From Clostridia bacterium (GTDB taxonomy: Bacteria; Bacillota; Clostridia; Oscillospirales; Acutalibacteraceae), in contig JAFWYB010000038.1 of assembly GCA_017517865.1 (NCBI GenBank), forward strand, positions 55,780-119,779: a DNA stretch of 64,000 nucleotides, written 5' to 3'. The notes under the pieces are model-generated. The model saw nothing but the letters and a program-made list of their open reading frames with translations, was not told the DNA's origin and did no database searches. The stretch's first letter is position 1. Every line of letters starts with the position of its first letter. Shown piece by piece: positions 49,503 to 63,725 of this stretch. The translations under genes and the position numbers were made by a program.

Positions 49503-49537
49503 AAAAAGCGTATCCCGGCAGGGATACGCTTTTTTTA
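49503..49537. terminator. Bidirectional terminator between exporter and phage cassette
   Basis: A perfect 14-bp stem, AAAAAGCGTATCCC with GGGATACGCTTTTT, and T-runs on both outer sides. It overlaps the stop of the last phage gene. Confidence 0.85.
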
Positions 49538-50356
49538 TCTGAAGGCTATGTAGGTGTAAGGACTGTCGCTGTCGTTAAGATGGGTTACGGCGTTTGTTGT
49601 CTTATAGGTTCTTACACGGAAGCCGTTATCAAGAATAGAAAGACCTCTTAAGGAGCTGCTTCCTGCGGCAAAGGAAAAATAGCAGTGGCTCAGACCGTCT
49701 GAGGTGCTGTAATTTGCCGCATGGTGTGTGTTGCCGTAAACGATTACGGCACGGGGTCTGAAGCCGAGGGCTATATCCTGAGTGGCGGAATCTCCGTTGT
49801 TGCCGGTGTAGGTGCCGATTACTGCCGGCTCCGAAAGGAAGGTGCGGTCTGCCTGTGAAAGATGAAGGTCGGTGTTATTGACGTGATTTTTGCAGAAAAA
49901 GCTTTCGGGCACTCTTTCACCAAGAATGTCATCAGTGCCGTCAAGGGGACAGGTAGTATAGGTGAAATGTATAAAGCAGGGTATAACGATGGAGTTGGCA
50001 TTGTCGTCGTATTTCACATCACCTATCCTGAAATCTGAAAGAGTGTCTATATAGTATTCCGAAAGAAAGTTGCAGATAACCTCGGCTATGGCGTTTGCCT
50101 GCTTTGCTTTTCTTGAGGAGTGAGCGTAGACGTTCATTCTGAGTGTCAGGTCCGTTTTAAGGCAGAGGGCTGCCGTCTCATCGTCGAAGCAGTAGCTGCT
50201 TTTGTTTTCATAGGGAACGAAGGAGGCGATGATAGTGTTGACGGGAATTACAAGCTCCTCACGGTTGAAGCCTCTTATAGCCTTTGCGAAAAGGGCAACA
50301 AGAAGCTCCTTGTTAACTAGGGAGATAATTTCTTCAATAAGCGGATTGGTTATCAT
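49535..50356 (-). CDS. Phage protein: tail-completion-like N-terminus joined to receptor-binding-like C-terminus
   Basis: 273 residues. The first ~140 (e.g. LVIPVNTIIASFVPYENKSS) resemble small head-tail joining or tail terminator proteins that follow capsid genes. The last ~95 (LGFRPRAVIVYGNTHHAANY ... YTYIAFR) resemble the C-terminal carbohydrate-binding domain of Clostridial phage tail fibres, which often end in YIAFR. Having both in one protein is odd and may be a fusion left after loss of the tail genes. RBS AAGGAGG before ATG 50356. Last gene of the cassette. Confidence 0.6.
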   Translation of the reverse strand: MITNPLIEEIISLVNKELLVALFAKAIRGFNREELVIPVNTIIASFVPYENKSSYCFDDETAALCLKTDLTLRMNVYAHSSRKAKQANAIAEVICNFLSEYYIDTLSDFRIGDVKYDDNANSIVIPCFIHFTYTTCPLDGTDDILGERVPESFFCKNHVNNTDLHLSQADRTFLSEPAVIGTYTGNNGDSATQDIALGFRPRAVIVYGNTHHAANYSTSDGLSHCYFSFAAGSSSLRGLSILDNGFRVRTYKTTNAVTHLNDSDSPYTYIAFR

Positions 50357-50358
50357 AA

Positions 50359-50697
50359 TTAAGCCTCCTTACTTACAACGGACCAGAAGTAATAGGGTTC
50401 CTTGCCGAAATAAACCCTTTCACAGTGGTCAAGCTTGAAGCGGTTGCCGTTAAAAAACAGGTTGTAGGTGTAACCGTCAATCTTATCCAAAGGTGCATCG
50501 GGGCTTGTGATGAGCAGATATTTCTGCAGGGTGTCAAAGCCCAGCTCCGTAGGGGCGTGACTGAGATAGAGCTTGTTCTTATACCTGAGAGGCTGCAGAA
50601 AGCCGTAAAAGCTTTCTGCATCTCCCGTAGAAATGTGTATAATTTCAAGCTTTACACCCATTTTTCTGAGAAAAGAATCTTTTATTTTATTTGCCAC
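50359..50697 (-). CDS. Phage head-tail connector-like protein
   Basis: About 112 residues if the GTG at 50697 is the start (the frame extends to 50769 inside the previous gene). The size, position after another small connector gene and a central beta-rich region (ESFYGFLQPLRYKNKLYL) fit a head-closure or stopper protein, but I see no decisive motif. Overlaps the previous gene by 11 nt and ends 3 nt before the start region of the next. Confidence 0.5.
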   Translation of the reverse strand: MANKIKDSFLRKMGVKLEIIHISTGDAESFYGFLQPLRYKNKLYLSHAPTELGFDTLQKYLLITSPDAPLDKIDGYTYNLFFNGNRFKLDHCERVYFGKEPYYFWSVVSKEA

Positions 50698-51049
50698 GGC
50701 AATAAAACTCACAATCTCTGAGAATAGTGCAGGCATCGGCAATTGCCTGAGAGCGAAGCTCCTTTTCAAACTGAAAAAGCTTTAACGGCTCCTGCTTTAC
50801 GGTTACGTCTCCGACCTTGTAATTCTGATATTTATCGGGCTCGGTAAGCTTTTTAAGGAAAAAGAAAAAATGAGCCATAGCACCTGCCGTAGTAAGTATC
50901 AGAGGGTCGTTTTCGTCAACACCCTCACGAAGCCTTGTATTTACCCAGTTAAGGCCGTCTCTACACGAAGGCATAAGCTGCTGACTCGTGTAACCCTCCA
51001 TATCCGAATAAGCGGTAAGAACAGAACATACGTTGTCAGCGGTGTACAT
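50687..51049 (-). CDS. Phage head-tail adaptor-like protein
   Basis: 120 residues, mostly helical, placed directly after the major capsid gene where gp6-like adaptors are found. It shows WVNTRLREGVDENDPLI and a C-terminal helix with IADACTILRDCEFYC. I prefer ATG 51049 (behind AAGGAGGA) to ATG 51067. Role inferred from position. Confidence 0.55.
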   Translation of the reverse strand: MYTADNVCSVLTAYSDMEGYTSQQLMPSCRDGLNWVNTRLREGVDENDPLILTTAGAMAHFFFFLKKLTEPDKYQNYKVGDVTVKQEPLKLFQFEKELRSQAIADACTILRDCEFYCRGK

Positions 51050-51060
51050 AAAAATCCTCC

Positions 51061-52059
51061 TTAGCAATTGACCTGAAGAGCAACGGATGCTTCCTTGAAG
51101 AGCTTTGCAAAGCCTACCGTTGAGGTTACTGCTGCTCTTTCAAGCTGTCTGTCAATAAGCTTGTCAAACTCTGTTGAAACTGTGCCTGCCTGTACCTTTT
51201 CAAGAGCAAAGTTCTTGTCAACGGCGATAAGGCGACCGGCGGGAAGAGCATCGTAGCGGATAAGCTCTGCACCGAAGGGTGTGTAAATCTTGCCGGTTGA
51301 AACGAAGGAGCCTGACGCACCGGATTCGATAAACTCGGGCATACGGATAATCTGAGAGAAGGTGTCGGGTGATGCGACGAGTGTTGTCATTGTGTAGGGG
51401 TGAATTGACATCCAGAGCTCTACGAGATTTTCATATGAAAGAGGGGCATCAGAGGTCTTAATTTCGATTGCATTGTTGTTGCCGTCACCGTTAAGAAGAG
51501 TGTTGATGGCGTCGTTTGCCTGTGCTCTTGCAATGGCTGCGCCTATCTGCTTGAGGGCAACGGTGAATACGTCAAGACGCTGGAAGCGTATAGCCTCGTA
51601 TGAAGCGGTGATGACTCTGCCTCTCTTGAAAAGGGGAATAAGATTCTGCTGAGTCCTGATGTTTGTTTCGGGAATGACTGTACCCTCGTTGATGACGGTG
51701 ACTTCACCCTCAGGGGTAACCGCAAGAAGTGAGCGGTAATCAAGGCCGTCGATTAAGGTTGTAGTAGCAACAAGTGATTTTACAATGTCTGTTTCCTCAA
51801 TGCCCTGCATAACTGCACGTGAAACATATTCGGGGAAAAGGGCAGCCGAATCTGAGGTTCTGAAGAATTTTTCGATGCAGTCGCTGTTTTTACCGCTTAC
51901 CTTGATGTCGAAGCGCTTAAGCTGACGCTGAAAGGCGTCAAGACCTTCAAGCTCGGTGCCGATGTAATTTTCACTGGGGTCAAGGCTTTCAAGGGCCTGA
52001 GTAAAGCTTTTTCCTGTGGTATAAAGGCTCTTTTCGAGTCTGATGTTTTCATATGTCAT
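51061..52059 (-). CDS. Phage major capsid protein, HK97-like
   Basis: 332 residues. The pattern is that of HK97-fold capsid proteins of Siphoviridae: an N-terminal arm, then an E-loop region around VTVINEGTVIPETNI, a peripheral domain with spine helix (ALKQIGAAIARAQANDAINTLLNG), and the ending VDKNFALEKVQAGT...LIDRQ. RBS AGGAGG before ATG 52059. It is flanked by a decoration-like gene and connector genes in the usual head-module order. Intact. Confidence 0.85.
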   Translation of the reverse strand: MTYENIRLEKSLYTTGKSFTQALESLDPSENYIGTELEGLDAFQRQLKRFDIKVSGKNSDCIEKFFRTSDSAALFPEYVSRAVMQGIEETDIVKSLVATTTLIDGLDYRSLLAVTPEGEVTVINEGTVIPETNIRTQQNLIPLFKRGRVITASYEAIRFQRLDVFTVALKQIGAAIARAQANDAINTLLNGDGNNNAIEIKTSDAPLSYENLVELWMSIHPYTMTTLVASPDTFSQIIRMPEFIESGASGSFVSTGKIYTPFGAELIRYDALPAGRLIAVDKNFALEKVQAGTVSTEFDKLIDRQLERAAVTSTVGFAKLFKEASVALQVNC

Positions 52060-52074
52060 TTAAAAATCCTCCTG

Positions 52075-52416
52075 TCAGATTAAAAATTCAATAGTTTCTT
52101 CCGCTGTGTCAACGCCCACAACGAGGTATTCTCTGCCGTTTTCGTTAACGGCGACACCGCCGTTGCCGTTTGCCGCCAGCTTATTGAAGCCTACTGCGGG
52201 TGTTGTGCCGCTGTAGGAAGCGACAGCATAGCCTGTCATGATAACAGAAGCGTAGCCTTCTCTTACTGCCGAGCATATGCCGCAGAACTTTTCCTCCGGG
52301 GTGCAAGGTGCGGCGTCGCCGTTTGTGCTGAGCTTTACGGGTGTACCCTCCGTTACGTTGCCTGATACGGCAAGAGTGACTTCTTTTGTGTTGAAGCCTG
52401 TAAAATTACTGTTCAT
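52075..52416 (-). CDS. Phage head decoration-like protein
   Basis: 113 residues, Gly/Ala/Thr-rich and beta-rich (EVTLAVSGNVTEGTPVKLST, then GICSAVREGYASVIMTGYAV). This is the layout of DUF2190-like or lambda gpD-like capsid decoration proteins, which are usually encoded between the protease and the capsid gene as here. RBS AAGGAGGA. Confidence 0.65.
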   Translation of the reverse strand: MNSNFTGFNTKEVTLAVSGNVTEGTPVKLSTNGDAAPCTPEEKFCGICSAVREGYASVIMTGYAVASYSGTTPAVGFNKLAANGNGGVAVNENGREYLVVGVDTAEETIEFLI

Positions 52417-52429
52417 TAAAAAATCCTCC

Positions 52430-53377
52430 TTAGATTCTGAATTCTGTGTTCTTTTCTGTTTTTGTCTGCTTGGCTGAGGCTCTGAGCTGAAGCGTTGCGG
52501 GAAGCTTCTCTCTTACCTGAGAATCAAGTCCGTCTCTGAGTTCACGAAGCTCCTTTATCTTCATACCCTCACAGCTTGCAATAAAGGCCTTGAAGCTTAC
52601 CTTGGGCATGGCGAGAAGAGCAAGACGCTCAATTTCTGCAAGAAGCGCAGACTTATACACTCTTGCCTCCCCGGCAAGCTCCTCGAGGGAAGCAATATGA
52701 GCCTTGAGTGTGTCGATTTCAGCCTCGGTTACGGGCTTTTCGGCTGAAAGACTTTTTATAATTTCTTCGGGGTTATACAAATGATTTTCCTCCTTAAAAG
52801 TGAAAGACTTCGTTACGCCTGCTTTTCTCTGGGCGGGTACTGCCACGAAGGACCATTCGTAAGCATCGGTGGGCTCGGAGAGGATGGCATAACAGAGCTT
52901 TGAATTGTAGGCTCTGCCCTTTACGTGTCTGCAGTCGTGTTTTTTCATATCTGCACCGCAGACTGAGCAGGTCGCCTTGTTTACAGAGCAGCTTATGCTG
53001 ACCTCTTTTTTGATACCGCCCTCGATTTCGGCAATCAAAGAAGCGGTTTCTTCGGTTCTGAGCATATAAGCCTGAGCCTTCAGCGCAAGATAGCCTTCGC
53101 CTGAAGAGGTCTTATGAAAGCCTTCCTCAAGGTAGGTGTTGAAAATTCTTGCGCGCTGATCCTTTGAACGCATGCTATGGTCAGATATGCCTGTTTTACC
53201 CGTGAAAAGCTCTCTGAGGGCAGCAAGAGCATCTCTGCTGAAGCATTCGTGGTCACGGTCAACCTCGTTGTCGCAGAGGGTAACCGTAAAGGTAAAAACA
53301 TCCTCTTTATTAAGGGGTGAGGTTGTGTAACGGTTGATGGCTTCCATTTCTTTTTCACTGCTGATTTTACCTGTCAC
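52430..53377 (-). CDS. Phage prohead protease/scaffold
   Basis: 315 residues. The N-terminal ~190 are protease-like: VDRDHECFSRDALAAL, then GISDHSMRSKDQ (possible catalytic His) and EVSISCSVNKA (possible catalytic Ser). A short zinc-finger-like Cys pair (CSVCGADMKKHDCRH) is inserted. The C-terminal third is helical and scaffold-like (TEAEIDTLKAHIASLEEL). Start GTG 53377, 9 nt after GGAGG, overlapping the portal gene. Confidence 0.7.
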   Translation of the reverse strand: MTGKISSEKEMEAINRYTTSPLNKEDVFTFTVTLCDNEVDRDHECFSRDALAALRELFTGKTGISDHSMRSKDQRARIFNTYLEEGFHKTSSGEGYLALKAQAYMLRTEETASLIAEIEGGIKKEVSISCSVNKATCSVCGADMKKHDCRHVKGRAYNSKLCYAILSEPTDAYEWSFVAVPAQRKAGVTKSFTFKEENHLYNPEEIIKSLSAEKPVTEAEIDTLKAHIASLEELAGEARVYKSALLAEIERLALLAMPKVSFKAFIASCEGMKIKELRELRDGLDSQVREKLPATLQLRASAKQTKTEKNTEFRI

Positions 53378-54527
53378 TGCCGTTCACCTCCGTTTCTCTT
53401 ATAAGCTTATCTGCCTGAGCATCATAATATCTGCTTCTTGAAAGCTCCGATATATCCTGAAGTGTTACGCTTTCCCAGCTTACGGTGAAGCTGTCGGCAT
53501 AGCCGTTCATTCTCAGCCACAGGTCGCAGATTTTTCTTATGACCGGCTCTATAATACGGCGGTATGCTTCAATTTCACTCGTAAGAATATCGGCCTGCTG
53601 GTGGCTCATCCTTTCCGTTGTTGACCAGCTCAGACCGAGTATAAAGGGAGGTATACCGAGCTTTGCAACAATCTGCTCAAGCATTTCTCTTACGGGCACC
53701 TCGCTGTCAAGAATCTGATTGTCTGCCCCGATTGCCTTTATGCTTACATCACCTACGGCAACAAAGTCCTTTACTGCCGAGGAGCTGTCCATGGTTTTAC
53801 TCCACTCCTCGGCAACCATCATAGCCCTCTGCTGAGCATAGGCCTTGTCAAGTGTGTCGTTCTGAGGCTTATAAGTAACCGCAAAGCGTACGTTACCCAC
53901 TCTTTCCCAGTTGATACCGATGGTGTTATAGATTTTCAGAAGCACGTCGCTTACAAAGGGCAGACCCTTCAGAAGTGAGGTGCCGTAAAGCTGCCCCGGC
54001 TGAGGATTAAGTGCAGACAGAAGGATGAGCCCCGGATATTTTACCGGCGCAAAGCCGCCCTTGCCGTCGTCGGCACAGACCGATACCTCGAGAGGACTTT
54101 CCCCCTCGGTAAGCATTACCGACCTGAGGTCAGAATTGAAAAGGTGGGTGACGGTAAGCCCGTCTGTTACCATTTCACCTATGGCTGTGCCGTAGGTAAG
54201 AAGCTGCTCGAGAAAGGTTGAGATGAAGGCGTTTATACCTGTCTGCGTTCCCGATACGGGTACGCCTGAGAGAAAGCTGCGAAGCTCATCTGTTGCTTTT
54301 TTGCTGTCACATTCAACCTCAAAGGTGCCGATAAGGCGTATAAGCTTGAAGATGGCAGCGTCAATAATGGGAATAGCTTCTCTTAAAGACCTGTAAAGCG
54401 ACATATCCGCGCCGGCGGCAGGGGAGTAGCCGCCGAGAAGTGAAAAGGGATGAACTTTTTTTGCGGTCTGAGGTACGGCAACGGCACTTTTCTGAGGATT
54501 CTTCTTTCTGTTTTTTCCGATAGCCAA
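53367..54527 (-). CDS. Phage portal protein
   Basis: 386 residues. The ring through which DNA enters the capsid. Visible features are typical of portal proteins of small siphophages: REAIPIIDAAIFKLIRLIG near the N-terminus, FISTFLEQLLTYGTAIGEMV, LIRYD-free core with VPVREMLEQIVAKLGIPPFILGL, and a Gln-rich SHQQADILTSEIEAYRRIIEP helix. Start TTG 54527, 6 nt after GGAG. Lies between the large terminase and the protease. Confidence 0.85.
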   Translation of the reverse strand: MAIGKNRKKNPQKSAVAVPQTAKKVHPFSLLGGYSPAAGADMSLYRSLREAIPIIDAAIFKLIRLIGTFEVECDSKKATDELRSFLSGVPVSGTQTGINAFISTFLEQLLTYGTAIGEMVTDGLTVTHLFNSDLRSVMLTEGESPLEVSVCADDGKGGFAPVKYPGLILLSALNPQPGQLYGTSLLKGLPFVSDVLLKIYNTIGINWERVGNVRFAVTYKPQNDTLDKAYAQQRAMMVAEEWSKTMDSSSAVKDFVAVGDVSIKAIGADNQILDSEVPVREMLEQIVAKLGIPPFILGLSWSTTERMSHQQADILTSEIEAYRRIIEPVIRKICDLWLRMNGYADSFTVSWESVTLQDISELSRSRYYDAQADKLIRETEVNGSDR

Positions 54528-54560
54528 AATAATCTCCTTTCAGGAAGGTTGACTTCCGAT

Positions 54561-55826
54561 TCAGTGTGACTGCCTTTTTGCGGCAAAGGCAAAAAAGCTG
54601 TCCTGTTCCCCTGCGAGTACGGTTGAAACGAAATAGCGGATTTCGTCCATAGCGTGGTCGTTTTCCTTCTTGGGTGAATCTTTGCCCGCCTTTTTGTCCC
54701 AACGGTAAAGAGAGAATTCCTTGATTGCGCCCTTGCAGAGCGGTGATATTTTTATCTGTCCCTGTCTGAAGGCACTCTGCACTCTTCTTATACCGTCGGT
54801 TACGTCGTTTTTCGCGGGTATTACTCTGAACCTGCCGTGTCTGCGTATACATTCAATAAATGAGGCGGCAGATGGGTCAACTATCACTGCCTCTATTTTT
54901 CTGTCACCGCACAGAGCAGCAAGGTCACTGTAATATTCTTCGTCGGTTTTCTGCTTGCCCTCAAGCCGTGAGGAATAGTAATACTCGTCAAAGCGGTACC
55001 ACACGTTATCGTGAAGACCCCACAGACCCATTGAAGTGGGGTTGACCGTACCGTAATCGCAGGAAACATAGTGCTTTTGAAAAGCGGGGGTGAGAGGCTT
55101 TTCAGTGTATTTTCCCTGTGCCGCCTCGGGGTAGACGAGACCGTCGGCGGCAACCCACAGACCGAGAACGAACCTTTCATAAAAGGCTCCGCTGTAAAGG
55201 CTTTCATATCTCTTTATCATTTTCTGTGATAAAGAGGGGTTGTCCTTCATAGTGAAATGAAGGTAAAGGCAGTTTTTTTCTTCGGCCTTTTTTATCCACT
55301 CCTCATAAAACCAGTGATGAGGATTTTCCGGATTACAGTTAAACCAGAAGGCGGAGCCGTTTACAGAGCAGCGGGCCAGGGCCTGTTCAACAAAGGAGCG
55401 GGGCATCAGAGCAACCTCGTCAAGAAAAATACCCGCGAGGGTTATACCCTGAATAAGAGAAGCGGAGCTTTCGTCGCGTCCTCCGAAAAGATAGTACCGG
55501 TTTTTTCTGCCTTCAAAGGAAATCTCGAGCATATTACTGCTGAGCTTTTCTTTGTATTCAAAGCCGGACTGCCTGAGGGCGGGTAATAAAGAGGTGAGTA
55601 CGTTTCTCCTGAGTGAGGCTATTGTCTTTCCGCAGATGGCGAAGTTTTCATCGTTGAAGCGGTAAAGTGACCATGCCACAAACGAAAGTGACATACAGGT
55701 GGTTTTGCCGCTTCTCACGGCGCCGTCACATATCAGCCCGTCATAACCGCAAAAAGGCGAGCTGTTGTGCCACCAGGAAAGAGCAATAAGCTGTTTTTTT
55801 GAAAAGCGTGAAAAGCTGCTACTCAA
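54561..55826 (-). CDS. Phage terminase large subunit (PBSX-like)
   Basis: About 421 residues. The packaging motor: ATPase Walker A GAVRSGKTT near the N-terminus, Walker B GIFLDEVALM, and a C-terminal RNase-H-like nuclease with Asp residues in CDYGTVNPTSMGLW and VIVDPSAASF. I place the start at TTG 55826, overlapping the small-subunit stop (TTGAGTAG), with GGAGG 9 nt before it; the ATG 55853 is further inside the small-subunit gene. The protein looks intact and functional. Confidence 0.88.
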   Translation of the reverse strand: MSSSFSRFSKKQLIALSWWHNSSPFCGYDGLICDGAVRSGKTTCMSLSFVAWSLYRFNDENFAICGKTIASLRRNVLTSLLPALRQSGFEYKEKLSSNMLEISFEGRKNRYYLFGGRDESSASLIQGITLAGIFLDEVALMPRSFVEQALARCSVNGSAFWFNCNPENPHHWFYEEWIKKAEEKNCLYLHFTMKDNPSLSQKMIKRYESLYSGAFYERFVLGLWVAADGLVYPEAAQGKYTEKPLTPAFQKHYVSCDYGTVNPTSMGLWGLHDNVWYRFDEYYYSSRLEGKQKTDEEYYSDLAALCGDRKIEAVIVDPSAASFIECIRRHGRFRVIPAKNDVTDGIRRVQSAFRQGQIKISPLCKGAIKEFSLYRWDKKAGKDSPKKENDHAMDEIRYFVSTVLAGEQDSFFAFAAKRQSH

Positions 55827-56295
55827 GACCGTCGGCCTCCAGTGCAAGCGCACCCTTTTCTATGGCAGAGTAAATTGAGCAGGAGCTTCCGTCATTTTCT
55901 CTGAGGTTAATCTCGCTCAGACGGTCAAGAGCCTTGAGGCGATCGAAAAACTTTATTTCAATATCGCCGCCTTTTTTTCTCTTGATTTCGGATATTCCGA
56001 AAAGGTCCATCTGCTCAATTTCCGCCGGTGAAATTTCATCTGAAAAAAGAAGCTTTACAGCGTCGCTCACACAGCCGAAGGCAAGTCTGTAATATCCCTC
56101 GGATATATTCTGATGTTCGGCCCTTCGCTGCTTTGAGCAATGCTCTATTTCTTTTCTGATTTCCTCTTTTTTGATAAGGCGCATACCGCTTCTTTCGGGG
56201 AAAGCAAAGCCGGCAGACTGCGCCGCCTCCTTTATGCTTCTGCCTGAGGAATAATAGCTGCAGAAAAGCTTTTCCTTTGAGGTAAGATTTCTGAT
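55819..56295 (-). CDS. Phage terminase small subunit without a canonical start
   Basis: DNA-recognition subunit of the terminase. The C-terminal part (GGDIEIKFFDRLKALDRLSEI) is typical. The frame continues upstream of the first ATG (56184) through a good helix-turn-helix N-terminus (NLTSKEKLFCSYYSSGRSIK, then EAAQSAGF), but no ATG, GTG or TTG precedes it before a stop. AGGAG (56303-56307) is 7 nt ahead of an ATC at 56295, so either AUC is used as a rare start or a former ATG has mutated. An ATG-56184 product would lack the DNA-binding half. Confidence 0.7.
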   Translation of the reverse strand: MRNLTSKEKLFCSYYSSGRSIKEAAQSAGFAFPERSGMRLIKKEEIRKEIEHCSKQRRAEHQNISEGYYRLAFGCVSDAVKLLFSDEISPAEIEQMDLFGISEIKRKKGGDIEIKFFDRLKALDRLSEINLRENDGSSCSIYSAIEKGALALEADGLE

Positions 56296-56385: not shown

Positions 56386-56457
56386 GGATAAGAAGAGGTA
56401 AAATTTTAAGAAAATATTCAGCCGTAAATTAAATGTGAATTTTTTTTGAATTTCTTA

Positions 56458-56486
56458 TTGACAAAAAAATAGCAGTAATGTATAAT
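56458..56486 (+). promoter_or_regulatory. Consensus promoter of peptide gene 1
   Basis: TTGACA (56458-56463), 17-bp spacer, TATAAT (56481-56486). A 7-bp stem with a GCAA loop (56495-56512) begins close to the predicted transcript start. Confidence 0.9.
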
Positions 56487-56537
56487 GAAATAAATTAAAG
56501 GGCAACCTTTAAAAATATATAATAGGAGGAAAATAAA

Positions 56538-56639
56538 ATGGCAGATTTTCTTAGAGAATATTGGGAAGATATTGTAGCTCTTTTCGATAAGATCTACATC
56601 TACATCAGAGATTGGCTCCTCGCTAACGAAGAGAAATAA
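56538..56639 (+). CDS. Tiny amphipathic peptide 1 (33 residues)
   Basis: Unrecognised family. The peptide begins MADFLREYWEDIVALFDKI and continues as one predicted amphipathic helix: hydrophobic pairs (FL, YW, IV, LF, IY, WLL) recur every 3-4 residues between charged pairs (RE, ED, DK, RD). Net charge is about -4, there is no signal peptide and no Cys. It shares W9, I12, V13, A14, F16, D17 and K18 with peptide 3, at identical positions. AGGAGG lies 8 nt before ATG. Coding support: strong promoter, strong ribosome site, paralogue conservation at protein level and a hairpin after the stop. Function unknown; PSM-like, membrane-active or signalling roles are possibilities. Confidence 0.8.
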   Translation: MADFLREYWEDIVALFDKIYIYIRDWLLANEEK

Positions 56640-56660
56640 TTCAAGATTGACTTAAAAGAT

Positions 56661-56690
56661 AAAGCCACCTTTACGGGTGGCTTTAAACTT
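56661..56690 (+). terminator. Hairpin after peptide gene 1
   Basis: A 9-bp stem, AAAGCCACC with GGTGGCTTT, 6-nt loop. The T-run after it is weak (AAACTTTGG). Confidence 0.55.
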
Positions 56691-56712
56691 TGGGGTGTCG
56701 AGGTTTGAAATA

Positions 56713-56741
56713 TTGACTTTTAAAGAATAAGAGTATAAAAT
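56713..56741 (+). promoter_or_regulatory. Promoter of peptide gene 2
   Basis: TTGACT (56713-56718), 17-bp spacer, TAAAAT (56736-56741). A 6-bp stem, GTTAGC with GCTAAC (56749-56765), lies at the predicted transcript start. Confidence 0.75.
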
Positions 56742-56789
56742 GGAAGCAGTTAGCAGTTGGCTAACAAATAAAAATGAGAGGAGAAAAAT

Positions 56790-56912
56790 ATGAAAGAGTT
56801 CTGGGATGAGTTCGGCTATGAAATCACACAGCTTTTAGCGGAGGTATTTAACTGGATTTTAGGACTTTTCGGAATTGAGATTCCTGAAAATCTTCCCGAA
56901 GACATTGAGTAA
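56790..56912 (+). CDS. Tiny amphipathic peptide 2 (40 residues)
   Basis: Unrecognised family. Residues 1-20 are MKEFWDEFGYEITQLLAEVF, followed by a very hydrophobic NWILGLFGIEIP and an acidic tail (ENLPEDIE). Predicted amphipathic helix; net charge about -9; no signal peptide. It lacks the IVA-F-DK core of peptides 1 and 3 but shares size, Trp placement, promoter layout, 5' stem-loop and AGGAG ribosome site. The acidic Pro-containing tail resembles peptide 4. No separate terminator is evident after it. Confidence 0.72.
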   Translation: MKEFWDEFGYEITQLLAEVFNWILGLFGIEIPENLPEDIE

Positions 56913-56964
56913 TTTGTATTTGAGAAAAAACACACCGATTTATGAATTTTTTTTGAATTAAGCG

Positions 56965-56993
56965 TTGACAAACTATAAATATTATTGTATAAT
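56965..56993 (+). promoter_or_regulatory. Consensus promoter of peptide gene 3
   Basis: TTGACA (56965-56970), 17-bp spacer, TATAAT (56988-56993). A 6-bp stem, TAAGGG with CCCTTA (57004-57019), lies near the predicted transcript start. Confidence 0.9.
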
Positions 56994-57043
56994 CGAATTA
57001 CCCTAAGGGAGTGCCCTTAAATTTAATAAGGAGGAACACAATA

Positions 57044-57133
57044 ATGGATAAGTGGATCATGGAAAACTGGGCAGCTATCGTTGCTTTCTTTGACAAGCTC
57101 TTCGGCATAGTTAAATCAATTCTCGAGAAATAA
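57044..57133 (+). CDS. Tiny amphipathic peptide 3 (29 residues)
   Basis: Paralogue of peptide 1: begins MDKWIMENWAAIVAFFDKL and ends in IVKSILEK. Seven of twelve residues in the 8-19 block are identical to peptide 1, while the codons differ, which indicates selection on the protein. Net charge is about zero. One amphipathic helix over its whole length, no signal peptide. AAGGAGG lies 9 nt before ATG. A clear terminator follows. Function unknown. Confidence 0.8.
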   Translation: MDKWIMENWAAIVAFFDKLFGIVKSILEK

Positions 57134-57176
57134 TTTAACTATAAACACAGTTTTAAAATTTAAATTTTAAAATTGG

Positions 57177-57206
57177 GAGTCACCTTTCGGTGGCTCTTAA
57201 TTTTTT
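57177..57206 (+). terminator. Terminator of peptide gene 3
   Basis: An 8-bp stem, GAGTCACC with GGTGGCTC (one G-T pair), TTTC loop, followed by TTAATTTTTTG. Confidence 0.75.
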
Positions 57207-57308: not shown

Positions 57309-60300
57309 ATGTCAGGCTTTTTAAAGATGCTTGAAGGTAAAATTGAATACGAGAGTGTCAGAAACGCAATAGCTTGCGGCAGACTGCCTATGGGCATAAT
57401 AGGCCTTTCACAGATACACAAGGCTCATTATATCGCGTCGCTTTGTGAGCAGACCGACAGAAAAGCACTTGTAATCTGCCCCGATGAGGGCTCAGCCTCA
57501 AGGCTTTGCGAGGATCTTAACAGCTTAAGTGAAAAGGCTTTGCTTTATGTTGCCAGGGATTTCAACTTCCGCGGTGCGGATAATAAATCCCACGAATTTG
57601 AGCAGAAGAGAATTGATGTGCTTGCCCGCGTTGTCAGCGGAGATTACCGCTACGTGGTGTGCAGTGTTGAGGCGGCGGTACAGCTCACTTTGCCTGTGCA
57701 GGAGCTGAAACGGAGAACTCTTGTGCTTAAGGTGGGCGAGGAAAAAACTACTCACGAAATAGTAAACACCCTTATTTCTGCAGGCTATGTAAGAACGGAG
57801 CAGGTTGAGGGCGTGGGTCAGTTTGCTTTAAGAGGCGGTATTCTGGATATTTTTGCACCCGGCTTTTCTCAGCCCTGTCGTGCAGAATTCTGGGGCGACA
57901 GTATAGACTCACTTTCTTTTTTTGATATTGAAACACAAAGAAGAACCGATGTTATAAACGAATTCAGCATAACCCCATCTACGGAGGTGCTGTTTGATTC
58001 TCTTTCGGTTATGAAAGAAAGGCTGACTGAGTTTTTGGCTTCGGTTAAGGGCAAGGGCTCGGTAAAGGCAAAGCAGATGATAGGCGAGGATATAGAAAAG
58101 CTTGAGCATTTTATTCACGTGGGTGCTCCCGATAAATATTTGTCTCTGGCCTACGACGAGCTTCACACGGTTTTTGATTATATGAAGGGCGATCTTCTGT
58201 TTGTAAGTGAAAGCTCGGCAGTGAAACAAAAGTATAACAGCTTTTCCGCACTGCTGAATGAGGATATGAAGGCTATGTTTACCGAGGGTATACTCACCAA
58301 GGGCCTTGACAGATTTATTCTTTCCTTCAGTGAGCTTCTTACGCAGTATGAGAAAAGCGGTGCAATTTTTAACGACACTCTGGCGAGGGGCTCCTTTGAC
58401 GTGCCCGTACGTGAGCTTGTGAGCATAAACGCAAGGCTTCTTTCCCGCTGGGACGGCACCTTTTCTTATCTGACTGAGGATCTTAAGCCTGCAATATATA
58501 ACGGTTATACGGTTGTTGTTATGGCGGGAACCGAAAAAAGTGCAAAGGAGCTTGCCTATGACCTTGAAACAGAGGAAATAAAGGCTCACTATTTTCCCGT
58601 TGTACCTGCTGAGTTTCCGAAGGGTACAGTTTCGGTAATAGGCGGCAGTGTCTCCTCCGGCTTTGAGTACCCGGGAGATAAATTTATGCTTTTCTCTTAC
58701 GGCAGAGCTCAGCACAAAAGTGAAACAAAGCCGAAAAGACGGTTCAAAAGCGGTAAGGGTATAGCATCTCTTGATGAAATCACCCGCGGTGACTATGTGG
58801 TACACGCCGTTCACGGTATAGGCATATTTGACGGTATAAAGACTATGAACGTCGGCGGTAAAATAAAGGACTTTATCAAGGTCAACTTCCGTGGCAGTGA
58901 TGTGCTTTACGTGCCCGTAACACAGCTCGACCTTATTTCAAAATACATTTCTCCCAAGGATACGGATAAGGCAATTAAGCTCAACCGACTCGGGTCTGAC
59001 GAGTGGAAAAACACCCGTGCAAGGGTAAGGAGTGCGGTAAGGGATATGGCGAAGGAGCTGACAAAGCTTTACAGTGCCAGAATGAATTCGAGGGGCTTTG
59101 CTTTCTCACCCGACATTGATATGCAGAACGATTTTGAGCGCCGCTTTGAGTTTGAAGAAACCGAGGATCAGCTTATTGCCGTAAACGAAATCAAAAGAGA
59201 TATGGAAAGAAGCGCACCTATGGACAGGCTTCTCTGCGGTGACGTGGGCTTCGGCAAAACCGAGGTCGCTCTCAGAGCCGTATTCAAGTGTATTGCCGAC
59301 GGTAAGCAGTGTGCAATTCTCGTACCGACGACAATACTTGCCTTTCAGCATTTTCAGACTATAAAGAAGCGTTTCGACGGCTTCCCCGTTGAAATAGATA
59401 TGCTTTCACGCTTCCGTACCCAGAGCGAAAGAACTAAAGTCAAGGCACGCCTCAAAAGAGGCAGCATAGATATAATTGTAGGCACCCACAGCATAATTGC
59501 AAAAAGCGTAGAGTTCAAGGATTTAGGTCTTCTCGTTGTTGACGAGGAACAGCGCTTCGGTGTTGCACAGAAGGAAAAGCTGAAGGAAAAGTTTCCTCAT
59601 GTTGACGTGCTGACTCTTTCAGCAACACCCATTCCCCGTACTCTCAATATGGCAATGACGGGTATAAGGGATATGTCGGTGCTTGAAATGGCTCCTGTGG
59701 GCAGACATCCCGTTCAGAGCTACGTTGTGCCTCACGATATGGAAATACTCTCTGAGGCTATGGAAAGAGAACTTCGCAGAGGCGGTCAGGTATATTATCT
59801 TCATAACCGCATAGAATCAATAGATGCCAGGGTGGCGCAGATAAAAAAATATCTGCCCGATGCCAGAATCGGTATCGGACACGGTAAAATGACAGAGGAG
59901 GAGCTCAGCGAGGTCTGGAGAAAGCTTCTTGAAAATGAGATTGACATTCTTGTTTGTACAACCATAATAGAAACGGGCGTTGACGTACCTAATGTAAACA
60001 CGCTGATTATTGAAGAGGCAGATAAAATGGGGCTTGCCCAGCTTCACCAGATAAGGGGCAGAGTAGGGCGAAGCTCAAGAAGAGCCTACGCTTATTTTAC
60101 CTATAGCAAAAACCGTGAGCTTACCGAAATCGCGCAGAGAAGGCTTTCTGCCATAAGAGAATTCACCGAATTCGGCTCGGGATTCCGTATTGCTATGCGC
60201 GACCTTGAGATAAGAGGTGCGGGTAATATACTCGGTGCTCAGCAGCACGGGCACATGGAGGCGGTAGGCTATGATATGTATCTGAAAATTCTTTCTGAAA

Positions 60301-60773
60301 CCGTTGACGAGGAAAAGACGGGCATAGCAACCGAGGAGAAAAAGGAATGCGTTATTGATATATCTGTTGATGCCCACATTCCGGAAAGCTATATTGATGC
60401 AGTCAAAAACCGCATAGGTATGTATAAGCGTATTGCCTCGATAGAAACAGGTGAGGACGCTATGGACGTTATGGATGAGTTTATCGATCGCTTCGGTGAA
60501 CCGCCTGCAAGTGTAAAGGGACTTGTTGATGTGGCACTTCTCAGAGCAAAGGCGGCAAAGCTCGGAATATATGAAATCAAACAGCAGAACGGAATGATTC
60601 TTGCCTTTACCGATGACCTTAAGCCGGATTTTGTTTCGGCGGTAGGACATAAGCTCAGAGGCAGAGCGATGATCAGCGCGGCAAAAACATCGCCTTACAT
60701 TTCCTTCAAGCTTCAGGGCAAGCCGCCCGTTGAAGCAATCAAGGAGCTTATTACGGCTCTTTCGGCAGAATAA
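57309..60773 (+). CDS. mfd: Transcription-repair coupling factor
   Basis: Displaces RNA polymerase stalled at DNA damage and recruits UvrA. 1154 residues: UvrB-like domain (LALRGGILDIFAPG region), RNA-polymerase interaction (CarD-like) domain from GDYVVHAVHGIGIFDGI, superfamily 2 helicase with Walker A GDVGFGKTEVALRA and DEEQRFG (DEEx box), motif VI QIRGRVGRSSRRAY, and a C-terminal TRCF domain. RBS GAGGTG before ATG 57309. All parts are intact. Monocistronic. Confidence 0.97.
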   Translation: MSGFLKMLEGKIEYESVRNAIACGRLPMGIIGLSQIHKAHYIASLCEQTDRKALVICPDEGSASRLCEDLNSLSEKALLYVARDFNFRGADNKSHEFEQKRIDVLARVVSGDYRYVVCSVEAAVQLTLPVQELKRRTLVLKVGEEKTTHEIVNTLISAGYVRTEQVEGVGQFALRGGILDIFAPGFSQPCRAEFWGDSIDSLSFFDIETQRRTDVINEFSITPSTEVLFDSLSVMKERLTEFLASVKGKGSVKAKQMIGEDIEKLEHFIHVGAPDKYLSLAYDELHTVFDYMKGDLLFVSESSAVKQKYNSFSALLNEDMKAMFTEGILTKGLDRFILSFSELLTQYEKSGAIFNDTLARGSFDVPVRELVSINARLLSRWDGTFSYLTEDLKPAIYNGYTVVVMAGTEKSAKELAYDLETEEIKAHYFPVVPAEFPKGTVSVIGGSVSSGFEYPGDKFMLFSYGRAQHKSETKPKRRFKSGKGIASLDEITRGDYVVHAVHGIGIFDGIKTMNVGGKIKDFIKVNFRGSDVLYVPVTQLDLISKYISPKDTDKAIKLNRLGSDEWKNTRARVRSAVRDMAKELTKLYSARMNSRGFAFSPDIDMQNDFERRFEFEETEDQLIAVNEIKRDMERSAPMDRLLCGDVGFGKTEVALRAVFKCIADGKQCAILVPTTILAFQHFQTIKKRFDGFPVEIDMLSRFRTQSERTKVKARLKRGSIDIIVGTHSIIAKSVEFKDLGLLVVDEEQRFGVAQKEKLKEKFPHVDVLTLSATPIPRTLNMAMTGIRDMSVLEMAPVGRHPVQSYVVPHDMEILSEAMERELRRGGQVYYLHNRIESIDARVAQIKKYLPDARIGIGHGKMTEEELSEVWRKLLENEIDILVCTTIIETGVDVPNVNTLIIEEADKMGLAQLHQIRGRVGRSSRRAYAYFTYSKNRELTEIAQRRLSAIREFTEFGSGFRIAMRDLEIRGAGNILGAQQHGHMEAVGYDMYLKILSETVDEEKTGIATEEKKECVIDISVDAHIPESYIDAVKNRIGMYKRIASIETGEDAMDVMDEFIDRFGEPPASVKGLVDVALLRAKAAKLGIYEIKQQNGMILAFTDDLKPDFVSAVGHKLRGRAMISAAKTSPYISFKLQGKPPVEAIKELITALSAE

Positions 60774-63529: not shown

Positions 63530-63570
63530 AAACCTACGGAGAAAATCCGATTTAAATAGGAGGTGCAATT

Positions 63571-63687
63571 ATGGAAGCTTTACAGACAGTATTTGATTAC
63601 ATCAAGGCAATCCTTGAAATAATCAAGAATTTCTTTGCAGACCTTATGCCTGAGAAGGAAGCAGAAGGCGAAGACGCAAACGCATAA
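63571..63687 (+). CDS. Tiny amphipathic peptide 4 (38 residues)
   Basis: Begins MEALQTVFDYIKAILEIIKN, followed by FFADLMP and an acidic tail of Glu, Asp and Ala. Predicted amphipathic helix over residues 3-26; net charge about -6; no signal peptide. Same gene layout as peptides 1-3: consensus promoter, early stem-loop, AGGAGGTG ribosome site, terminator. It lies 6.4 kb away from the others. Sequence identity to them is low, so membership rests mainly on architecture and helix pattern. Confidence 0.75.
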   Translation: MEALQTVFDYIKAILEIIKNFFADLMPEKEAEGEDANA

Positions 63688-63698
63688 GTTAATCAATA

Positions 63699-63725
63699 AG
63701 AACCGTTGCTCAGCAACGGTTCTTT
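63699..63725 (+). terminator. Terminator of peptide gene 4
   Basis: An 11-bp stem, AGAACCGTTGC with GCAACGGTTCT, 3-nt loop, followed by TTTC. Confidence 0.75.

Follow-up and report, generated by a model that had tools for sequence, protein, structure and literature searches.

Small amphipathic peptides are known from several bacterial systems. Leaderless multi-peptide bacteriocins are cationic helices of about 30 residues encoded by tandem genes, and SpoVM is a small amphipathic membrane peptide encoded by a single sporulation gene. Most leaderless membrane-active peptides do not carry a net negative charge, and the PSM-beta type of phenol-soluble modulin is not cationic. LspU shows that discovery of PSM-like peptides in S. 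aureus continues (PMC12607899).

The window analyzed here (G000:C24:55780-119779), meaning the whole 64,000-nucleotide stretch of DNA, comes from a genus that represents an uncultured gut bacterial group. It carries four micropeptide genes, P1 to P4. The typical cassette in this genus combines a promoter of the TTGACA-17-TATAAT type, a hairpin at the predicted start site of transcription, a strong Shine-Dalgarno sequence and an ORF for one amphipathic helix of 26–57 residues. We regard these cassettes as almost certainly a real family with a common architecture. In the window, P1 to P3 form an array between a minus-strand phage-head operon (49535–56184) and mfd (57309–60773), and P4 lies apart from them, 3’ of a Na/Pi symporter gene. 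The original prediction of 33-, 40- and 29-codon genes with a fourth at 63.5 kb was confirmed as an observation, P4 encoding 38 amino acids. The features are as follows.

56436–56457, plus strand: box before the P1 -35 element, TGAA-N8-GAAT-N6, a candidate UP-element-like or regulator site
56458–56486, plus strand: P1 promoter, TTGACA-17-TATAAT, 12/12
56495–56512, plus strand: hairpin in the P1 leader, near the predicted start of transcription, -6.6 kcal/mol, 0/200 shuffles as stable, position kept in relatives
56524–56529, plus strand: P1 Shine-Dalgarno sequence, AGGAGG
56538–56639, plus strand: P1 micropeptide, 33 amino acids, group B
56660–56685, no strand (placed on the minus strand by the scan): terminator-like hairpin 3’ of P1, kept in G005
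56713–56741, plus strand: P2 promoter, TTGACT-17-TAAAAT, 10/12
56749–56765, plus strand: P2 leader hairpin, -7.1 kcal/mol, 0/200 shuffles as stable
56790–56912, plus strand: P2 micropeptide, 40 amino acids, with an orthologue in G005
56943–56964, plus strand: box before the P3 -35 element
56965–56993, plus strand: P3 promoter, TTGACA-17-TATAAT, 12/12
57004–57019, plus strand: P3 leader hairpin, -7.1 kcal/mol, z -0.20, 81/200 shuffles as stable
57044–57133, plus strand: P3 micropeptide, 29 amino acids, group A (14 aligned genes including P3)
57151–57172, no strand: perfect A+T palindrome of 22 bp within the P3 3’ UTR, one base shorter than the genus form
57169–57204, plus strand: terminator-like hairpin 3’ of P3
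63501–63529, plus strand: P4 promoter, TTGACA-17-TAATAT, 10/12
63537–63549, plus strand: weak P4 leader hairpin, -4.7 kcal/mol, not beyond shuffles (z -1.04)
63571–63687, plus strand: P4 micropeptide, 38 amino acids, group D, behind the Na/Pi symporter gene
63698–63724, plus strand: terminator-like hairpin 3’ of P4

All four promoters had been described as near-perfect sigma-A promoters with 17-bp spacers. The spacer length holds throughout and P1 and P3 match at every consensus position, but P2 and P4 are better called good. Not noted originally were the box upstream of -35, the hairpins in the leaders, the palindrome in the 3’ UTR and the spread of the family across the genus. Relatives of P1 were found in G005, G003, G007, G002 and other genomes, and one locus (L120, at 8302 and 8713) carries a tandem pair of near-identical group B genes that duplicated recently. 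In G005 (L155) a gene related to P4 likewise lies behind the symporter gene.

Codon comparisons were used to assess whether the ORFs encode protein. The gene order of the array is preserved in G005 and all three frames are intact there, although no comparable promoter was found ahead of its P2 orthologue. Between the window and G005, the dN and dS values (NG86) of the three array genes were 0.26/0.58, 0.27/2.38 (P2) and 0.17/0.54. Across the three alignable groups, dN was below dS in 64/65 usable pairs of group A, 23/23 of group B and 43/43 of group C, after exclusion of 26, 13 and 35 saturated pairs. Divergence by codon position ranked 3>1>2 in these groups, and the two alternative frames contained stops in 11 and 13 of 14 genes (A), 9 and 8 of 9 (B) and 13 and 13 of 13 (C). 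Frames were kept in relatives. As originally observed, P1 and P3 share W9, I12, V13, A14, F16, D17 and K18 at the same positions, and E7 as well; I, V, F and D are encoded by different codons in the two genes, and A14, K18 and E7 by identical ones. On this comparative evidence the tiny ORFs are genuine genes under purifying selection, as had been proposed. The ORFs are short and the window contains other strong promoters, and they could be chance ORFs behind small-RNA promoters. With dN below dS in 130/131 usable pairs, other frames mostly stopped and 37/38 exact box sites leading to such an ORF, the probability of this is negligible, and in our view the codon evidence already refutes it.

The promoter type itself is not unique to micropeptide genes, since the window contains eight copies of TTGACA-17-TATAAT when one mismatch is allowed, compared to 0.40 expected. 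With at most one mismatch the box matched the window twice (0.12 expected), at P1 and P3 only. TGAA-N8-GAAT was present at a fixed distance before -35 in 24/66 micropeptide promoters and 0/75 control promoters, and TGAA alone was at its fixed place in 39/66 and 1/75, respectively; the controls were drawn from G000, G044, G054 and G056. The box is common to peptide groups that can no longer be aligned.

Box plus promoter was also searched for in 34 genus genomes, without using any peptide property. The search yielded 114 places (38 exact and 76 with one mismatch), of which all exact sites and 60 distinct one-mismatch sequences were read. The exact sites comprised 36 complete micropeptide genes, one contig-cut micropeptide gene and one tRNA-Gly gene. 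The 60 one-mismatch sequences comprised 40 micropeptide genes, two tRNA loci (tRNA-Lys and tRNA-Thr/Tyr), one L10 leader, two glycine riboswitches and 15 other or unknown sites. Automatic calling accounted for 34 exact and 35 one-mismatch micropeptides; three exact (L135, L260 and the contig-cut L276) and five one-mismatch cases (L254, L290, L291, L300 and L320) were added by eye. Group H cassettes were found through the box in several genomes lacking A or B matches (e.g., L277, L280, L309 and L314). A promoter-first search can thus find functional micropeptides that homology misses; in this genus, all but one of the exact sites led to a micro-ORF.

The sole exact non-peptide site of the genus search is the tRNA-Gly gene on the minus strand of L281 (178–253). 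The tRNA-Gly, tRNA-Lys, tRNA-Thr/Tyr, L10 and riboswitch sites raised the idea of a stable-RNA promoter class. This is weakened by the tRNA genes from loci retrieved for other reasons, where 0/22 had the box within one mismatch and two had it at two mismatches; the sole four within one mismatch among the 28 genus tRNA genes surveyed all lay in loci retrieved via the box. Because of this result, the box is not a demonstrated strength element. The near-exclusive association of exact sites with micropeptides, together with the absence from 22 tRNA genes, leads us to lean towards the site of a common regulon, though sharing of the box may partly be inherited by duplication.

Predicted leader structure also set the micropeptide genes apart from controls. 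Folds of -4 kcal/mol or lower were found in 41/67 micropeptide leaders as compared to 25/75 controls, and 28/67 as compared to 13/75 were more stable than 95% of dinucleotide shuffles. Among leaders of matched length (25–50 nt), the corresponding values were 36/47 versus 23/43 and 27/47 versus 10/43. The hairpin began 6–8 nt after the -10 element in 31/41 micropeptide leaders and 6/25 controls. All 41 hairpins are unlike in sequence, and RNAalifold found no consensus structure in a MAFFT alignment of 32 leaders, so hairpin position served as the criterion in its place. Of the four leader hairpins in the window, only those of P1 and P2 exceed shuffles.

Downstream, the 3’-UTR palindrome GTTTTAAAATTTGAAATTTTAAAAT (at most two mismatches) gave 18 matches at 15 distinct places in 11/34 genus genomes, compared to none for the reversed pattern in the same 34 genomes. 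All 15 places are 3’ of a micropeptide gene by position, one being the end of a contig-cut ORF, mainly in groups A and B (e.g., L118, L120 and L130). A second palindrome, ATTAAACAATTGTTTAA, gave six matches at five places in five genomes and lies behind cassettes by position in G007, G006 and probably G023. The structured leaders and 3’ palindrome suggest a function at the RNA level, as in a type I toxin or a dual-function regulatory RNA. We consider this very improbable given the codon-level selection and the acidic amphipathic, not transmembrane, helices. In addition, the only minus-strand promoters in the array region are two weak ones (9/12), a total within chance, and an Rfam scan of the array gave sub-threshold matches only, far below gathering scores.

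The claims that P1 to P4 lack Cys and are neutral to acidic are correct for all four. Their amphipathicity is above that of most shuffles; shuffles of their own composition reached as high a moment in 8 (P1), 48 (P2), 14 (P3) and 0 (P4) of 1000 cases. AlphaFold2 run on the single P1 sequence predicted a helix from residue 2 to 32 (mean pLDDT 94.9). Signal peptides were judged by eye to be absent. Retrieved loci were mined for a promoter, a Shine-Dalgarno sequence and an ORF of 20–70 codons, giving about 70 cassettes in at least eight groups sorted by eye. Genes can escape the filters used (score >=8, moment >=0.5, charge <=+1); one in L196, for example, was missed and read by eye in the overlapping L172.

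The 68 distinct peptides had a median length of 37 residues (26–57) and a mean net charge of -4.4. As this set was partly chosen by eye for type, its counts of net charge (65 negative, three zero) and of hydrophobic moments above 95% of own shuffles (62/68) are partly circular. Five cassettes with a moment below 0.45 and a charge of zero or above were dropped by eye (window 20270, L126 13739, L129 8858, L130 14961 and L154 13029), and three were added (L119 510, L119 260 and L124 11714). The box-defined set (n=37) is free of this circularity and was also mainly acidic, with 33 peptides net negative, two neutral and two at +1. Trp occurs in 48/68 peptides and Cys in 3/68. Lys and Arg lie mostly (65%) at 120–180 degrees from the hydrophobic face, which does not give a clear class A pattern. 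Tandem leaderless genes of about 30 codons, frequent Trp and species-specific sets would also be expected of multi-peptide leaderless bacteriocins. This reading is improbable given that the peptides are mostly net negative in both sets, that most genes have their own promoter, and that no gene for dedicated export or immunity could be recognized among the partly annotated neighbors.

Profile A1 matched 15/34 genus genomes at E<=1e-5 and 29/34 at E<=0.1, the latter including matches inside long ORFs. Strong-promoter sites led to acidic amphipathic ORFs of at most 60 codons at 8/40 distinct sites in G000, 3/30 in G044 (30 of its 36 matches had DNA) and 0/21 in two other genera. In a family sample of 300 genomes, micro-ORF matches occurred in four genus genomes including G000, while outside the genus there were two matches only, both within long frames and neither a micropeptide. 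Among 394 genomes of the order, profile A2 matched G000 only. Profile matches were also found in six named Clostridia/Oscillospiraceae MAGs, four of them titled with herbivore hind-gut samples. Carriage of groups A and B was clustered on the capsid-protein tree, though not as one clade. A phage origin of the micropeptides was rejected, as the A1 scan of IMG/VR (one pattern) gave 14 candidates, none confirmed.

The expectation that no described family would match was borne out. Neither Pfam nor NCBIfam returned a match above cut-off, and PADLOC gave nothing convincing; for P1 to P4 and 21 A1 members, Pfam at E<=1 returned no PSM family, although HMMER performs poorly on peptides of such short length. 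A PDB profile search gave weak, chance-level matches only, and a literature search found no description of this micropeptide family. The family is larger than originally reported and, as judged from profiles of groups A–C, appears to be restricted to the genus with no described counterpart found.

Neighboring genes were clustered over 33 loci, and nine representatives together with the window genes were compared with Pfam. MatE, DAGK, lipase-like, permease and secreted-domain proteins were recognized, and three representatives had no match. Group C cassettes directly adjoin a MatE transporter gene in five loci (L127, L132, L138, L148 and L156), and group H cassettes directly adjoin a diacylglycerol-kinase-type gene in three (L127, L132 and L148); one representative of each was confirmed by Pfam. 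No peptide exporter was recognized among the partly annotated neighbors. These associations, the anionic character of the peptides and the lack of a signal peptide would suit peptides of intracellular membrane surfaces, located on the inner leaflet, a vesicle or a lipid body, that tune the membrane or recruit proteins. Such an inner-membrane role is the main rival to surfactant action outside the cell, and we consider it rather unlikely. A housekeeping membrane factor would not usually occur as many diverging paralogues with species-specific repertoires, and the neighbors differ by locus.

The operon next to the array encodes a tail-less phage head: TerS, TerL, portal, a phrog_16951 protein, a virion structural protein, a phrog_3922 capsid and small ORFs. 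Its capsid gene is present as a single copy in 33/34 genus genomes (the G009 copy is split over two contigs), with 58–73% identity to that of the window in full-length matches, and relatives of 50–56% identity occur in five human faecal phage records. The operon has apparently been kept vertically and looks like a separate GTA-like element. It is possibly a gene transfer agent similar to FpGTA I of Faecalibacterium, whose gene content is similar (PMC12946183). In 18/33 module loci, cassettes lay immediately upstream of the terminase genes, which could make them accessory genes of the head operon, for instance in particle release. In ten loci none was found and five could not be judged, so an obligate partnership is rejected because 10/28 loci with enough flank show no cassette (the miner can miss genes). 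An accessory role is highly improbable, as many cassettes also lie elsewhere and the A1 scan of IMG/VR found none.

The original interpretation, a set of abundant membrane- or protein-binding micropeptides, is partly supported. Selection on protein and the lack of a described family stand, and the binding was proposed from amphipathicity; “abundant” found no support in a rough codon index, where seven G000 micropeptides scored 0.48, pooled window genes 0.54 (p 0.32) and PPDK 0.75, a weak index on which an S21-like gene itself scores only 2/9. High output is nevertheless the simplest reading of the promoters, A+T-rich box, hairpins and strong Shine-Dalgarno sequences, and this architecture makes strong expression probable. 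The A+T-rich box is likened to an UP element, and in Gram-positive bacteria hairpins at the 5’ end may impede decay from that end. Near-consensus sigma-A promoters with a strong ribosome-binding site would give high output, the box would raise transcription or bind a common regulator, and the 5’ hairpin could shield the mRNA from decay at its 5’ end. The helices would then settle on membranes or other interfaces of oil and water through a broad face of aromatic and aliphatic residues; activity at interfaces is a reasonably likely property of peptides this amphipathic. In quantity they might behave as surfactants, as phenol-soluble modulins do, with leaderless export as the most likely route, though action outside the cell is only tentatively proposed. 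Genus-restricted cassettes making surface-active helices that work like surfactants outside the cell are our best explanation of the whole, offered as a plausible model and somewhat short of an even bet. More speculative, and doubtful as it stands, is a dedicated regulon with one box and 5’-hairpin messages, bulk-making diverging anionic amphipathic micropeptides as a collective surfactant or coat system without known counterpart, some members of which may be among the most abundant products of the cell. If the peptides are made at the suggested level, much of the small proteome of a clostridial genus of the gut has escaped notice, since annotation seldom includes genes of such short length.

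Catalogues of smORFs (GMSC, PMC11364881; gut smORF multi-omics, PMC13376575) would in principle hold such Clostridia ORFs; the word “amphipathic” is absent from the main text of the latter. Among known systems, type I toxins are hydrophobic and transmembrane, whereas the micropeptides are mostly acidic amphipathic helices. SpoVM has one amphipathic helix of similar length but is a single gene, as compared to the multigene family seen here. Leaderless multi-peptide bacteriocins share tandem leaderless helices of about 30 residues and differ in being cationic where the micropeptides are mostly anionic, with no transporter or immunity gene recognized among the partly annotated neighbors. The micropeptides differ from phenol-soluble modulins in lacking a PSM Pfam match, in being mostly anionic, in having a fixed promoter box and in having no linked exporter recognized. 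They are short leaderless amphipathic helices, several per genome, as are delta-lysin, PSM-beta and LspU. By physical type the phenol-soluble modulins are closest, and the likeness would be one of similar working, not homology.
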